Source: Beroe forskalii
Lineage: Eukaryota > Ctenophora > Nuda > Beroida > Beroidae
Direction: 5' to 3'
Length of the DNA: 64,000 bases
Assembly (NCBI GenBank): GCA_011033025.1
Contig: WFMF01000083.1
Span: 124,001-188,000 of the forward strand
The notes below the pieces were generated by a model that was not told where the DNA came from, ran no database searches, and saw only the letters and a list, made by a program, of their open reading frames with translations. Within the stretch, counting starts at the first letter, position 1, and every line of letters starts with the position of its first letter. A program made the position numbers and the translations under genes. This document shows, piece by piece, positions 60,301 through 63,326 of the stretch.

Positions 60301-63300
60301 TCGGTTCTCAATTCCATATCGATTACTTGAAAGTTAGCCTTCTCAGTATCTTCAGTTTTCAAAATAGCTCAGATGTGAGATGGACTAGTCATCATAGATA
60401 TAATTTAGATTTAAGAAGCCATCTGGTGACTATGAGAGCCAGCCCACTATGACCTTACATACAGTAAAGCAGTAAAGCAGTAAAGCTCTAATACTTTAAT
60501 GTGGTCACCATCCATATTTAAGTCTGATGTTACAGGTGCCGATGTGTCTGGTCGGAAACAAGTGTGACCTGGAAGACGAAAGGGTCGTGGGCAAGGACCA
60601 GGGAAACCAACTGAGCCGGGAATTCAACAACTGCACCTTTAAAGAGACCTCTGCTAAACAGAAGATCAATGTCAACGAGGTACGTTCAAGGATAACAAAC
60701 TGTTTTTATTTCGTTATGTTGCGTATTTTGTTGTGCTTCGTTTCGTAGTGATGCTTACAATTATCAGTGCTGTTGATAACATTTGGCGTTATCGTGCCAA
60801 ATTTAGTGAATGATATTGTGGCTAATCAAGGTTTATAATGTCTGTAGAACGATGAAAAGTAAATGCTACATTGTACATTGCGATTATTTGATGGAACCGG
60901 CTCTAAGTTGGCAAACTTAAGTAAATCTCCAAGCTTTAAACGTCACCCCATAAATCCATGTCTGAACGCTTATAACCAATCATTCCCGCGACATCAAGTA
61001 CCAACGATTGATCTTGTAGTATACCTGAAATCAAACTACCTTAGTACACTTAAGAACGGCGTCACTTAATTAGTGCGGTTTGGGAAAAACCGCACTAATT
61101 AAGTGTACAGTAATTAAGTGCACATGAAATTAAGTGAACAATTTCGTGAATTTTGCGTTTTTCGAATTCGTTTTTATACATATTTCGGTTCTCAATTCCA
61201 TATCGATTATCGTTTTCGATCTCAAGTCATAAAAACCGCACTAATAAAGTGCGCCGATCTTTAAGTGCGCGCCAATTACGTGATGCCGTTCTTAGGTGTA
61301 CTAAGGTAAAAGGTTTAGCACAAATTTAAGACAAAGTTAAGGGAATATTTTTAAGCGGCCTCATCTTTTGACCATTACGATATGTTTCACCCCATTATAG
61401 TATAGCACTGTAGCAGAAAAGAACCAAAAACGATAATTTCGTCTCATTTATCCAGCAAATATCATTTCAGTTCAATTTTGATCGTTTTAGACAGGCAGAC
61501 TGCTTATTACTAGCATTTTGCATCAATGTCTCTTTAATTGTGGCCGACATTTAGTTTAACGCGCGCACGTGCGTTTCCCATGTATATTTTGTGTTTTGTT
61601 TAATTAAGTGACATGTGAGCGCAGCGCAGCTGGTACAGCACGCGACGACCGGTACGTACAGTCACTGTTCAAAAAGAAAAGTGATTTCGCTTTTTTGGCT
61701 ATTTTTACCGCAGTAAATTTCAACTTTGAGCGATCACTGTGTGGTACTGAAAAATAGCAGCACCTTAACTGTTTTTGATATCATTAGACTGATCATTGCT
61801 CTGTGTAACAGTGAAAAATTTTCTTAAATTGGCCTTCATATTGGTCTTCGTACGTCGTACGCGTCGGTGAAGGATTTTTTGCCAAATTCTAGCATCTCTA
61901 TACTTCCTTTCTGATTGTCAAATATAACAATATGAGATATCATTATCAACAAACCACAGTACTGACATAAGTCAAATGTCTTTAATGCGTTACAAACGAA
62001 AATGCATTTTTCGTGTAATTTCCGTCACAAATTGGTTTTAATTTGTTGATTCCATCTCCCAGATATGATTAAACACGGTATGGAAATAATGTGCTGCAAA
62101 TTAGAGTTCGCCATTTTAAATGGTGTCAATCATACAGTGTGGGTGTGTAAATGAACATTTGCCAAGATGAGGTGTCGCCCTGAATCTACACCACAAACTG
62201 ATTTTCAGATTTTCATTGATTTAGTACGTCAAATAAACTCCAAGACTCCGGGTGCAAACGGCGGAAAAGACAAAGAGACTCGGTGCTGTGTTCTTCTCTA
62301 AAAAGTGAGAGGCTGTGAGAGCGGGATTGTGAATGTGTATTCTGATAAAATGCTGCTCCCACAAAATACCAGGCGGTTGGAAGTGTTACCAATTTATCAC
62401 TTTAAAGCGTGATAATGACGTCACTTTCAACCGCCTAATGTTTGTGTGGTGGCGGGGGCTTGTGTGTTGCTGCCTGCTGCATGGGTCGGGTGTGTGAGTG
62501 TAAACCAGCATGTTATCTGTACGCAGTACTCAGTGGTGCCCAAACAGTCGGTCATAGACCCAGCCTTGTTTAGGACCTGATTAAACATGCAAATGTTTGA
62601 TTGATTCAGCATGGAAGTACACATGTGCCAAATTGCAATACAAATAAGATTCGTTCGGGCAATGGGAATTTTCTCTTTCTTTTGGGGAAAAATTGGTCTC
62701 TGATTCATGTCCTGAATTAAGATAAAAGCTAACAGCGAGACTCAACTGATCTTTTCTTATCGCTTCAACGTTTTGATATTACCTCACGTGGAAGTATGAA
62801 AGGCGTAGATTGCCTTTGCCTTACTTATTGTAACGTTATTCCACGTTTCATCGTTTTCTGGGATTTGATATCAGAATTATTATTCTGGATACTCAGTTGT
62901 TCGAATGCATTTTTCCAATACTAAGTTTTAAAATCTTTCATTCTTGAAAGAAGGGTGTTTGTTTCAAAAATGTTAGCGTTAGGAAATAGCAATATCAATA
63001 TCAATATTTTTACTGGAAAAAACGTCAATTGATCCCTTGAATTTGATACAAATCATTCACTTTCTACAATAGTTTATCCTTGATTGGATGCCTACTGCCT
63101 CTGAAAGCCCCTTTTCAGTTAATTCTTACCATAGTATCACTCCAAAAGAGTATCTTATATTTCACAACCCTCAGTATAAATGGAACCCTCGAAGCTAACC
63201 CCCACATTATCAAACCCATAACGACCCCTCTCTCCGCAGATTTTCGTCGATTTGGTGCATCAAATAAACAGCAAAAACCCTGGGCCCAGCGACCGCAAGA

Positions 63301-63326
63301 AGAGAAAGGTGTGCGTCCTCTTGTAA
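57393..63326 (+). CDS. Rap1: Rap1 small GTPase, with duplicated exons
   Basis: A Ras-family switch that cycles between GDP and GTP and controls integrin- and cadherin-based adhesion at membranes. Exons: 1 57393-57449, 2 58170-58238, 3 58899-58955, 4 59234-59374, 5a 59669-59812, 5b 60536-60679, 6a 62209-62301, 6b 63240-63326. All junctions are phase 0 with GT/AG. With one exon 5 the protein is 186 (6a) or 184 (6b) residues; vertebrate Rap1 is 184. P-loop GSGGVGKS 10-17, effector loop YDPTIEDSY 32-40, DTAGT 57-61 with the Rap-specific Thr61, NKCD 116-119, SAK 147-149, and a CVLL geranylgeranylation box in both ends. All GTPase motifs are intact. The start matches the family's usual N-terminus [10 protein letters not shown]. 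Hairpin MITEs lie in several introns. Confidence 0.96.
57972..58060. mobile_element. AGGCGGTT hairpin MITE, copy 2 (Rap1 intron 1)
   Basis: Arms aaaataggcggtt and aaccgcctattttt about 90 bp apart, matching the element at 42228. Confidence 0.7.
59504..60325 (+). repeat. Rap1 exon 5 duplication, unit 1
   Basis: About 820 bp starting cttgaaagttagccttctca (59504) and ending cattccatatcgatta-type text (60325). It includes exon 5a and intron on both sides. The intron parts match unit 2 with scattered indels. Its right part carries the left portion of the 'gtgcggttt' MITE, cut at the junction. Confidence 0.85.
59669..59812 (+). CDS. Rap1: Rap1 exon 5a (G4/G5 motifs)
   Basis: 48 codons, [11 protein letters not shown] to KQKINVNE, carrying the guanine-specificity NKCD and SAK motifs. 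Acceptor gatgtcgcag, donor gag|gtacgt. Differs from exon 5b at three positions, all third-codon and silent (ctt/ctg, ggt/gga, cgt/cgg). Confidence 0.93.
60326..61209 (+). repeat. Rap1 exon 5 duplication, unit 2
   Basis: About 880 bp, a direct copy of 59504-60325. The join at 60325/60326 fuses sequence found at 61209 (tatcgatta) to sequence found at 59504 (cttgaaag), as expected from unequal exchange. Confidence 0.85.
60536..60679 (+). CDS. Rap1: Rap1 exon 5b (duplicate of 5a)
   Basis: Encodes exactly the same 48 residues as exon 5a. Acceptor gatgttacag is slightly richer in pyrimidines; the donor is the same. The exon is a multiple of 3 in phase 0, so using both exons would give an in-frame internal duplication that disrupts the G domain. 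Splicing one or the other gives an identical protein. Confidence 0.93.
61037..61308. mobile_element. MITE N with 'gtgcggttt' hairpins
   Basis: Inverted ends TACCTTAGTACAC(T)TAAGAA and TTCTTAGGTGTACTAAGGTA. Next to the left end is a perfect hairpin attagtgcggttt..aaaccgcactaat. A cut copy lies at about 60163-60325 in the duplicated unit. 61310-62208 is intron with no other feature. Confidence 0.75.
62209..62301 (+). CDS. Rap1: Rap1 alternative C-terminal exon 6a
   Basis: 30 codons plus stop, [15 protein letters not shown] then [15 protein letters not shown]. It ends in a CVLL box with an additional Cys just before it and few net basic residues. That fits prenylation plus possible palmitoylation. 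The acceptor is attttcag. A possible donor AAA|GTGAGA lies 3 nt after the stop (GT at 62305). No AATAAA was found between here and exon 6b, so the exon may be spliced on to 6b as KRAS exon 4A is. Confidence 0.92.
   Translation: MFIDLVRQINSKTPGANGGKDKETRCCVLL
62359..62448. mobile_element. AGGCGGTT hairpin MITE, copy 3
   Basis: Between Rap1 exons 6a and 6b. Arms cccacaaaataccaggcggt and accgcctaatgtttgtgtgg; the loop contains gataatgacgtcac. Confidence 0.7.
63240..63326 (+). CDS. Rap1: Rap1 alternative C-terminal exon 6b
   Basis: 28 codons plus stop, [15 protein letters not shown] then [14 protein letters not shown] run of basic residues (RKKRK) precedes the CVLL box, the standard polybasic-plus-geranylgeranyl anchor of Rap1. 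Acceptor tctctccgcag. Confidence 0.94.
   Translation: MFVDLVHQINSKNPGPSDRKKRKVCVLL

Follow-up and report, generated by a model that had tools for sequence, protein, structure and literature searches.

Tandem alternative last exons in the Rap1 gene of the ctenophore Beroe forskalii and a possible switch of membrane anchor

INTRODUCTION

The 4B form of KRAS is polybasic, and in the KRAS cassette the first tail exon is joined to the second, which then serves as 3'UTR. The two are tandem alternative last coding exons, each of which codes for the last part of the G domain plus a hypervariable tail, with the exon of the palmitoylated-cysteine form 4A lying before that of 4B (PMC9882654; PMC9663995). 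In CDC42, the ubiquitous exon 7 gives a prenylated form, CDC42-prenyl, and the form from the brain exon 6, CDC42-palm, is palmitoylated as well; the sorting of the two forms between soma and neurites is there attributed to their 3'UTRs, which differ, rather than to the lipid tails (PMC6411841). In a survey of 167 RAS-superfamily members, a splicing choice between different membrane-targeting tails was found for KRAS and CDC42 only (PMC9882654).

For Rap1, no last-exon switch was recognised in the literature searched, which comprised open-licence PMC papers. An alternative exon of human RAP1A is mentioned in thyroid carcinoma, in a passage that does not specify the exon (PMC9714508), and the passages found in PMC7092514 and PMC9520007 concern Rap1GAP or references, with no choice of Rap1 exons among them. 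The first-pass annotation of the DNA studied here knew of no Rap1 gene described with two anchors, which agrees with this literature but has to be qualified by the boll weevil (Anthonomus grandis grandis), for which two Rap1 isoforms, X1 and X2 (P0056 and P0077, listed with equal-sized contigs), differ at seven positions, none of which lies outside residues 170-180 of the tail. That annotation is automatic, and both of its tails are polybasic with a single cysteine, so the type of anchor is unchanged. Here, we describe a Rap1 gene in a 64,000-nucleotide stretch of the Beroe forskalii genome (hereafter, the window).

RESULTS AND DISCUSSION

A Rap1 gene with two complete last exons

The last gene of the window is Rap1, read from the sequence as exons 1-5 followed by alternative exons 6a and 6b (Table 1). 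Rap1 proteins carry the P-loop GSGGVGKS, Ser39, Thr61 and a CAAX box ending in Leu, all of which are present (the first three read from exons 1-3, the last being CVLL in both 6a and 6b); Ser39 is the Rap1-like state, as against Phe39 in Rap2-like proteins. The best PDB matches of the protein are Rap-1b (E = 4e-98), Rap-1A (2e-94) and Rap2A (1.6e-67). No second Rap1 locus was found in the organism's own 216-Mb genome, contig C947 carrying the only one found.

Exons 6a and 6b are each a complete last coding exon of this one gene, with CAAX box and stop; both are in phase 0, in frame with exons 1-5 and preceded by an AG acceptor. The two tandem C-terminal exons noted in the first-pass annotation are confirmed in coordinates, frame and acceptors, and the observation of two intact alternative Rap1 last exons is real. 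The tails also read as described there, polybasic in 6b and weakly charged with Cys-Cys in 6a, the charge of the last 18 residues being +5 and +1, respectively. The tail sequences differ in anchor type, with an extra cysteine in 6a and a polybasic stretch in 6b, and the CVLL box common to both is one that we take to receive geranylgeranyl. When the window was searched by tblastn together with 10 kb of upstream and 20 kb of downstream sequence, no further exon-6 match better than E = 0.04 was obtained, and an additional tail exon nearby was rejected. The idea that 6a is a fragment of the C230 Rap2-like gene was likewise rejected, as the C230 tail has neither INSK nor Cys-Cys.

Table 1. Features of the Rap1 locus, in positions of the window
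Feature	Position	Strand	Remarks
Exon 1	57393..57449	+	start codon and P-loop, 19 residues; donor TTG/GTAAGT
Exon 2	58170..58238	+	switch region with Ser39
Exon 3	58899..58955	+	DTAGT with Thr61
Exon 4	59234..59374	+	
Exon 5, first copy (5a)	59669..59812	+	in a roughly 0.8-kb tandem unit
Exon 5, second copy (5b)	60536..60679	+	same protein as 5a, 3 synonymous differences
Exon 6a	62209..62301	+	last-helix end, low-charge tail KETRCCVLL, stop; 30 residues; candidate anchor with palmitoyl and geranylgeranyl groups
Possible 5' splice site GTGAGA	62305..62310	+	3 nt past 6a stop; would splice 62304 onto 63240
ATTAAA, candidate poly(A) signal of an mRNA ending with 6a	62580..62585	+	chance expectation 0.69 in 938 nt
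Exon 6b	63240..63326	+	last-helix end, polybasic tail, stop; 28 residues; predicted geranylgeranyl and polybasic anchor
AATAAA, candidate poly(A) signal past 6b	63731..63736	+	another AATAAA at 63936

Two probable proteins from one gene

To judge from these exons, two Rap1 proteins that share a G domain but differ in membrane anchor are probably produced from a single gene. If 6a is included, translation would stop within it, and the tail would be of low charge, ending in RCCVLL with Cys-Cys ahead of the CAAX box; the CVLL cysteine would be geranylgeranylated and the preceding one palmitoylated, and anchoring would be reversible and palmitate-dependent. If 6a is skipped, exon 5 would be joined to 6b, yielding the ordinary Rap1 anchor of a geranylgeranyl group and a polybasic stretch. 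The use of both exons in Beroe, the lipid modifications and the different membranes are what we infer from the two tails.

For the 6a form, we favor a KRAS-like route, in which 6a would be spliced on to 6b and 6b would serve as 3'UTR, because the 6a stop lies only 3 nt before a good donor. This donor, pointed out as possible in the first-pass annotation, has the proper form (AAA/GTGAGA, exon end 62304), and its score of 7.33 falls within the range of the six other donors inferred for the gene (6.67-8.95); 70 GTs score as high in the 64,000 bases of the + strand, or 0.0011 per base by chance. Alternatively, the same 6a protein could be made by polyadenylation at the ATTAAA, in which case two last exons with separate poly(A) sites would compete, as in CDC42, and the isoforms would not come from a KRAS-like cassette. 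The ATTAAA lies 279 nt past the 6a stop and is followed by T/G-rich DNA, TGTTTGATTGATT, which suggests that 6a may be served by a poly(A) site of its own, and past 6b AATAAA occurs at 63731 and 63936. The earlier claim that 6a lacks a poly(A) signal of its own was too strong in this respect, though there is no AATAAA between 6a and 6b. On the other side, ATTAAA is expected 0.69 times by chance between 6a and 6b, and a good donor 3 nt past the stop would be superfluous for a terminal exon; we regard the CDC42-like arrangement as somewhat unlikely. Among splicing-factor motifs, three GCATG were seen in 62478-62609 (P about 0.03, uncorrected for the six patterns tried), which is a weak lead.

Comparison with described anchor choices

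The KRAS-like choice of tail suggested in the first-pass annotation is partly supported, apart from the poly(A) argument, by the order of the exons, the old and constrained pair that they form, and the Cys-Cys tails of related proteins (the last two described below). As in KRAS, the cysteine-bearing tail exon lies upstream (4A; 6a), and one G domain core serves both forms. The locus differs in that the gene is Rap1, in its CVLL boxes, with geranylgeranyl expected in place of the farnesyl of KRAS, and in the extra cysteine of 6a, which directly precedes the CAAX cysteine; KRAS4A keeps two short polybasic patches, whereas 6a has none. For exon 4A, an origin from NRAS exon 4 has been reported, whereas 6a looks like a copy of the Rap1 gene's own last exon. 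With CDC42, the predicted Rap1 choice shares the use of alternative last exons to exchange a tail that is only prenylated for one that also carries palmitate; CDC42 belongs to the Rho family and its exons have separate 3'UTRs, whereas in Rap1 the donor past the 6a stop points to a 3' end common to both forms. Anchors of prenyl plus palmitoyl are also described for the Rap proteins RAP2A and RAP2B (PMC10622456), which are separate genes and not exons of Rap1; the G domain of the window is Rap1-like (Ser39).

Cys-Cys tails in related Rap1 proteins

The nearest G domains are those of P0003 (153 of 156 residues identical to the window), P0001 (152), P0004 (150), P0037 (148) and P0002 (144), all others measured having at most 142, and these five group with the window Rap1 at an SH-aLRT of 91. 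They are found as uninterrupted ORFs on contigs of 709-1,856 bases and are thus probably cDNA; we take them to be from ctenophores. Viral contigs scanned with P0003 yielded no relative. Among the four Rap1 proteins with the closest G domains, three have a 6a-like Cys-Cys tail, ending in SCCVLL (P0001 and P0003, net tail charge 0 in each) or SCCTLL (P0004, +1), and the fourth, P0037, is polybasic, ending in RKKRICTVL; the tail of P0002 contains CCSC. The strongest preference for 6a over 6b among 148 tails is shown by P0001, P0002, P0003 and P0004, by 38-46 score units, the next being 25. The P0037 tail is only seventh by 6b score, after P0050 and five others; it is not specially close to 6b and may be a plain ordinary Rap1 tail. 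A fluke Rap1, P0005, matches 6a as well as P0004 does (score 101.5 vs 101.0), and a tree of exon 6 (30 residues, 14 rows) gave no resolved grouping. A protein database clustered at 90% would merge the 6a and 6b forms, which are 93-94% identical.

These tails bear on the view that both proteins are made and the lipid difference is minor, either because both forms, with no acyl group on the cysteine preceding the CAAX box, reach the same membranes, or because the choice mainly alters the 3'UTR. Palmitoylation cannot be read from sequence, the same prenyl group is expected on both CVLL tails, and the CDC42 forms, as described in PMC6411841, are sorted in neurons through the 3'UTRs of the chosen last exon. 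However, P0001, P0003 and P0004 retain both the Cys-Cys and the low charge, P0002 has CCSC, and in simulations reported in PMC10622456 the membrane adsorption of Ras and Rho tails varies with basic residues and palmitoylation. A minor role for the lipid difference is, in our estimate, unlikely.

Age and constraint of the two exons

Exons 6a and 6b find each other at E = 9e-7, and in a database of 5.8 billion sequences the 6a tail has related matches with E values as low as 5e-12, which excludes a chance resemblance. Over 19 alignable codons (the first 15 and CVLL; this being the alignable, hence conserved, part), the exons differ at 11 of 12.8 synonymous and 6 of 44.2 nonsynonymous sites (P = 4e-6, Fisher's exact test), and all four CVLL codons differ synonymously. 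The near saturation of synonymous sites with the amino acids kept indicates that 6a and 6b are an old pair and that both are constrained.

If 6a were an unused relic of exon duplication, 6b alone would be made. The pyrimidine tract before the 6a acceptor is weaker than that of 6b (8 of 15 vs 11 of 15), and the GC3 of 6a (0.39) is near the base composition of the intron, compared with 0.52-0.77 in the other Rap1 exons; these two features suggest that 6a may be used little. Against a relic stand the protein ends kept while synonymous sites approach saturation, the intact acceptor, frame and CAAX box, and the 6a-like tails of related proteins on uninterrupted ORFs, and we consider it very improbable.

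The neighboring exon 5 is itself doubled, a duplication absent from the first-pass annotation, with copies that are about 94% identical; the exon part of a 681-base query from the tandem unit matches twice only in the genome, both times at the Rap1 locus. Although this doubling possibly reflects two haplotypes set end to end, an assembly artefact in which 6a and 6b are wrongly joined alleles or paralogues is hardly credible and was rejected, as the exons are near synonymous saturation, too different for alleles, their tails differ, and the genome search yielded no further Rap1 locus.

Implications for Rap1 and the Ras family

We tentatively propose, as a serious possibility, that a regulated switch of Rap1 anchors is ancient and common to ctenophores; it would predate the divergence of the relatives sampled and be the third independent origin of a palmitoyl/polybasic choice of last exon, after KRAS4A/4B and CDC42. 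The best-known role of Rap1 is in cell adhesion. The membrane on which a Ras-family switch sits decides which partners it meets, and one G domain with two anchors would be a natural comparison for what the anchor itself contributes to Rap1. If true, a third case, in Rap1 and in a lineage near the root of the animals, would mean that the same solution arose repeatedly, and with recurring parts: a low-charge cysteine tail set against a basic one, the cysteine being carried on the upstream exon.

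Structure of the Rap1 gene

The last gene in the window is a Rap1 gene on the + strand, whose exon borders were drawn from sequence, not transcripts, and whose introns are all in phase 0. Its G domain carries Ser39 and Thr61, which we take to be marks of Rap1, and among solved structures it matches Rap-1b best (E 4e-98), followed by Rap-1A, with Rap2A far behind (1.6e-67). The two last exons that the first-pass annotation had placed after exon 5 are both in position (6a and 6b). When the 216-Mb assembly (1,134 contigs) was searched with each isoform, the exons of this gene were matched only on C947, the contig from which the window is taken (C947:124001-188000), and the next full-length match was an uninterrupted Rap2-like ORF at 55-59% identity.

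Exons of the Rap1 gene, in window coordinates
Feature	Position	Strand	Basis
Exon 1	57393-57449	+	sequence-inferred borders
Exon 2	58170-58238	+	sequence-inferred borders
Exon 3	58899-58955	+	sequence-inferred borders
Exon 4	59234-59374	+	sequence-inferred borders
Exon 5, first copy (5a)	59669-59812	+	sequence-inferred borders
Exon 5, second copy (5b)	60536-60679	+	sequence-inferred borders
Exon 6a, alternative last exon	62209-62301	+	sequence-inferred borders
Exon 6b, alternative last exon	63240-63326	+	sequence-inferred borders

Exon 5 lies within a tandem duplication (59532-60325 and 60389-61209; region 59532-61209), the units of which are 94% identical in an 824-column alignment that contains 15 mismatches and 20 gaps. 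The same 48 residues are encoded by both copies, which differ by three synonymous changes and nothing else. Judged by these comparisons, the doubling is a young event distinct from 6a/6b, and could be either a true duplication or two haplotypes placed end to end. If both copies entered one mRNA, 48 residues would be added inside the G domain. MITE-like short inverted-repeat elements were observed at 60167-60325 and 61037-61308, at 63620-63765 and, judged by eye, at 62370-62440; the MITE-like part within the exon-5 unit has at least 38 other genomic matches (87-93% identity).

Two tails and their processing

The proposed contrast between a low-charge Cys-Cys tail and a polybasic one is borne out. 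The 6a tail has 30 residues, a net charge of +1 across the last 18 and a Cys immediately N-terminal to the CAAX Cys, and the 6b tail has 28 residues and a net charge of +5; the two isoforms are 93-94% identical to each other. Each exon is preceded by an AG acceptor, with a richer pyrimidine tract at 6b (11/15) than at 6a (8/15, as at exons 4 and 5b). The suspected donor after the 6a stop is AAA/GTGAGA, 3 nt past the stop, and its score of 7.33 falls within the range of the six other inferred Rap1 donors (6.67-8.95); 70 GTs in the 64,000 bases score at least as high. An mRNA whose stop lies 3 nt before its final junction would not be expected to undergo nonsense-mediated decay. The claim that 6a has no poly(A) signal of its own held in part: AATAAA is absent between 6a and 6b, but ATTAAA occurs at 62580, which makes a separate poly(A) site after 6a possible. 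Whether 6a is spliced to 6b or polyadenylated separately, the 6a protein is identical.

Age and constraint of the exon pair

The synonymous/nonsynonymous test that had been suggested for 6a and 6b covered codons 1-15 of each exon and the four that encode CVLL. Synonymous differences number 11 in 12.8 sites and nonsynonymous differences 6 in 44.2 sites (P = 4e-6, Fisher's exact test on rounded counts), a comparison biased toward conservation by omission of the unalignable mid-tail. All four CVLL codons have changed, every one synonymously. Such a pattern, with synonymous sites mostly changed and nonsynonymous sites seldom, argues that the pair is old and that selection has kept both ends.

Related Rap1 proteins

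The relatives compared were 151 proteins listed across database searches with the 6a tail (36 proteins from 36 candidates), the 6b tail (four from five) and the full-length protein (965 at E<=1e-80 among 7,983 candidates scored, the best 120 listed). Among these matches, G-domain identity is highest for P0003 (153/156), P0001 (152), P0004 (150), P0037 (148) and P0002 (144), and is at most 142 for all others measured. The G-domain tree had 123 rows, the window and 122 of the 151 proteins, after 29 were dropped because the pattern used did not excise their G domain cleanly, sponge P0142 among them. In it these five group with the window (SH-aLRT 91, below the starred level), P0001, P0003 and P0004 being closest (SH-aLRT 83). 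All five are uninterrupted frames and their contigs are 709-1,856 bases long, against 6 kb for the intron-containing gene in the window, so that they are probably transcripts; we infer that they come from ctenophores.

The tails of P0001 and P0003 end in SCCVLL and that of P0004 in SCCTLL (charges 0, 0 and +1), P0002 ends in SCCSCQLL and has GGKDK in common with 6a, and P0037 ends in QRKKRICTVL. Among the 148 of 151 tails scored (three were not cut), the strongest preference for 6a over 6b was found in P0002 (46), P0001 (45), P0003 (41) and P0004 (38), the next tail reaching 25. Three results weigh against the two-anchor reading. A fluke protein, P0005, scored 101.5 against 6a, level with P0004 at 101.0. 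Since P0037 ranks only seventh by 6b score, its likeness to 6b may be that of the ordinary Rap1 tail. The exon-6 tree gave no resolved grouping. A Cys immediately before the CAAX Cys is present in 15 of 122 tails, and is combined with a charge of at most +2 in nine, three in the window's clade and six from bdelloid rotifers with long tails. No 6a/6b-like pair was found in any one relative, which says little because the database, clustered at 90%, would merge pairs 93-94% identical.

Six bdelloid rotifer proteins (P0013, P0025, P0027, P0031, P0034, P0035) have tails of 48-66 residues from the last helix, with Cys-Cys before the CAAX. Near-identical Rap1 G domains are also shared by P0079, P0087, P0099, P0138 and P0148 on one side and P0083, P0107 and P0114 on the other, with Cys-rich and strongly basic tails both present; this group, presumably crustacean-like, is a second candidate place for tail switching.

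Mitochondrial contig and other observations

The mitochondrial contig of the assembly (C1134, also L016) has 13,339 bases and 82.5% A+T. Its cox1 reads TGA as Trp (four in the match), ARAGORN found no tRNA, and all 13 of its ORFs of 90 aa or more lie on one strand. The Pfam scan covered ten of these, leaving out cox1 and two overlapping frames, and recovered cox3, two NADH-dehydrogenase antiporter-type proteins, cob, nad1 and cox2, with four lacking a family; atp6 and atp8 had no match among the ten. According to PMC5924465, ctenophore characters are a lack of tRNAs, of atp6 and of atp8, genes confined to one strand and a high A+T content. For B. forskalii, PMC6991124 gives mitochondrial genome lengths of 13,357, 13,339 and 13,338 bases and a G+C content of 17.3%; it places URF1 (1,065 bp) after nad5, followed by URF2 (669 bp). 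On C1134 a long nad5-like ORF is followed by a 368-codon frame (stop to stop, 7546-8652), placed as URF1 is in B. forskalii. The next frame, of 313 codons (stop to stop, 8929-9870), exceeds URF2 in length and may not correspond to it.

In the window, a long tandem array on the - strand (15944-18149; CVVMVCCHGVLSW...) is read in several frames, and abuts a fragment that by eye resembles the last helix of a rhodopsin-type GPCR, with no Pfam match. An uninterrupted ribose-phosphate pyrophosphokinase ORF (Pfam; 32015-33052, + strand) is perhaps a retrocopy.

A putative membrane switch

CVLL as a rule directs geranylgeranylation. With 6a included, Rap1 would be expected to be geranylgeranylated there and putatively palmitoylated at the preceding Cys; with 6a skipped, it would carry the ordinary Rap1 anchor, geranylgeranyl plus a polybasic stretch. 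Three GCATG words, which we take to be RBFOX-type motifs, lie downstream of 6a (62478-62609; P about 0.03, uncorrected), a weak hint of RBFOX-type control.

The choice would follow the same logic as KRAS4A/4B, as outlined in parts of PMC9663995 and PMC9882654, and resembles the palmitoyl/prenyl pair of CDC42 (PMC6411841, in part). According to passages of the latter, the CDC42 forms differ in function and neuronal location, and their sorting was credited to 3'UTRs, lipids being unable to account for it; a possible 3'UTR role must therefore be kept in mind for 6a/6b.

In PMC9882654, which surveyed 167 RAS-superfamily members, C-terminal alternative splicing was found in nine members other than KRAS (those named do not include Rap1), and CDC42 alone behaved like KRAS in yielding tails whose membrane targeting differs; the word Rap1 is absent from its main text. 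A human RAP1A alternative exon in thyroid carcinoma is mentioned, with no further detail, in part of PMC9714508. The view that no Rap1 gene had been described this way stands for the literature searched, most of it judged without full text, where no last-exon tail switch in Rap1 was recognized. It needs qualifying for databases: the automatically annotated boll weevil isoforms X1 and X2 (P0056, P0077) differ at seven positions between residues 170 and 180, all in the tail, and are otherwise identical, so tail choice as such in Rap1 is already present there. Unlike 6a and 6b, both weevil tails are polybasic and the anchor type is unchanged; a change of anchor type in a Rap1 tail choice was seen nowhere in the databases and literature searched. 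On present sequence evidence, the two-tail structure of the Rap1 gene is very likely real, the 6a and 6b proteins are probably made as an isoform pair, and the choice between them would constitute a putative membrane switch.
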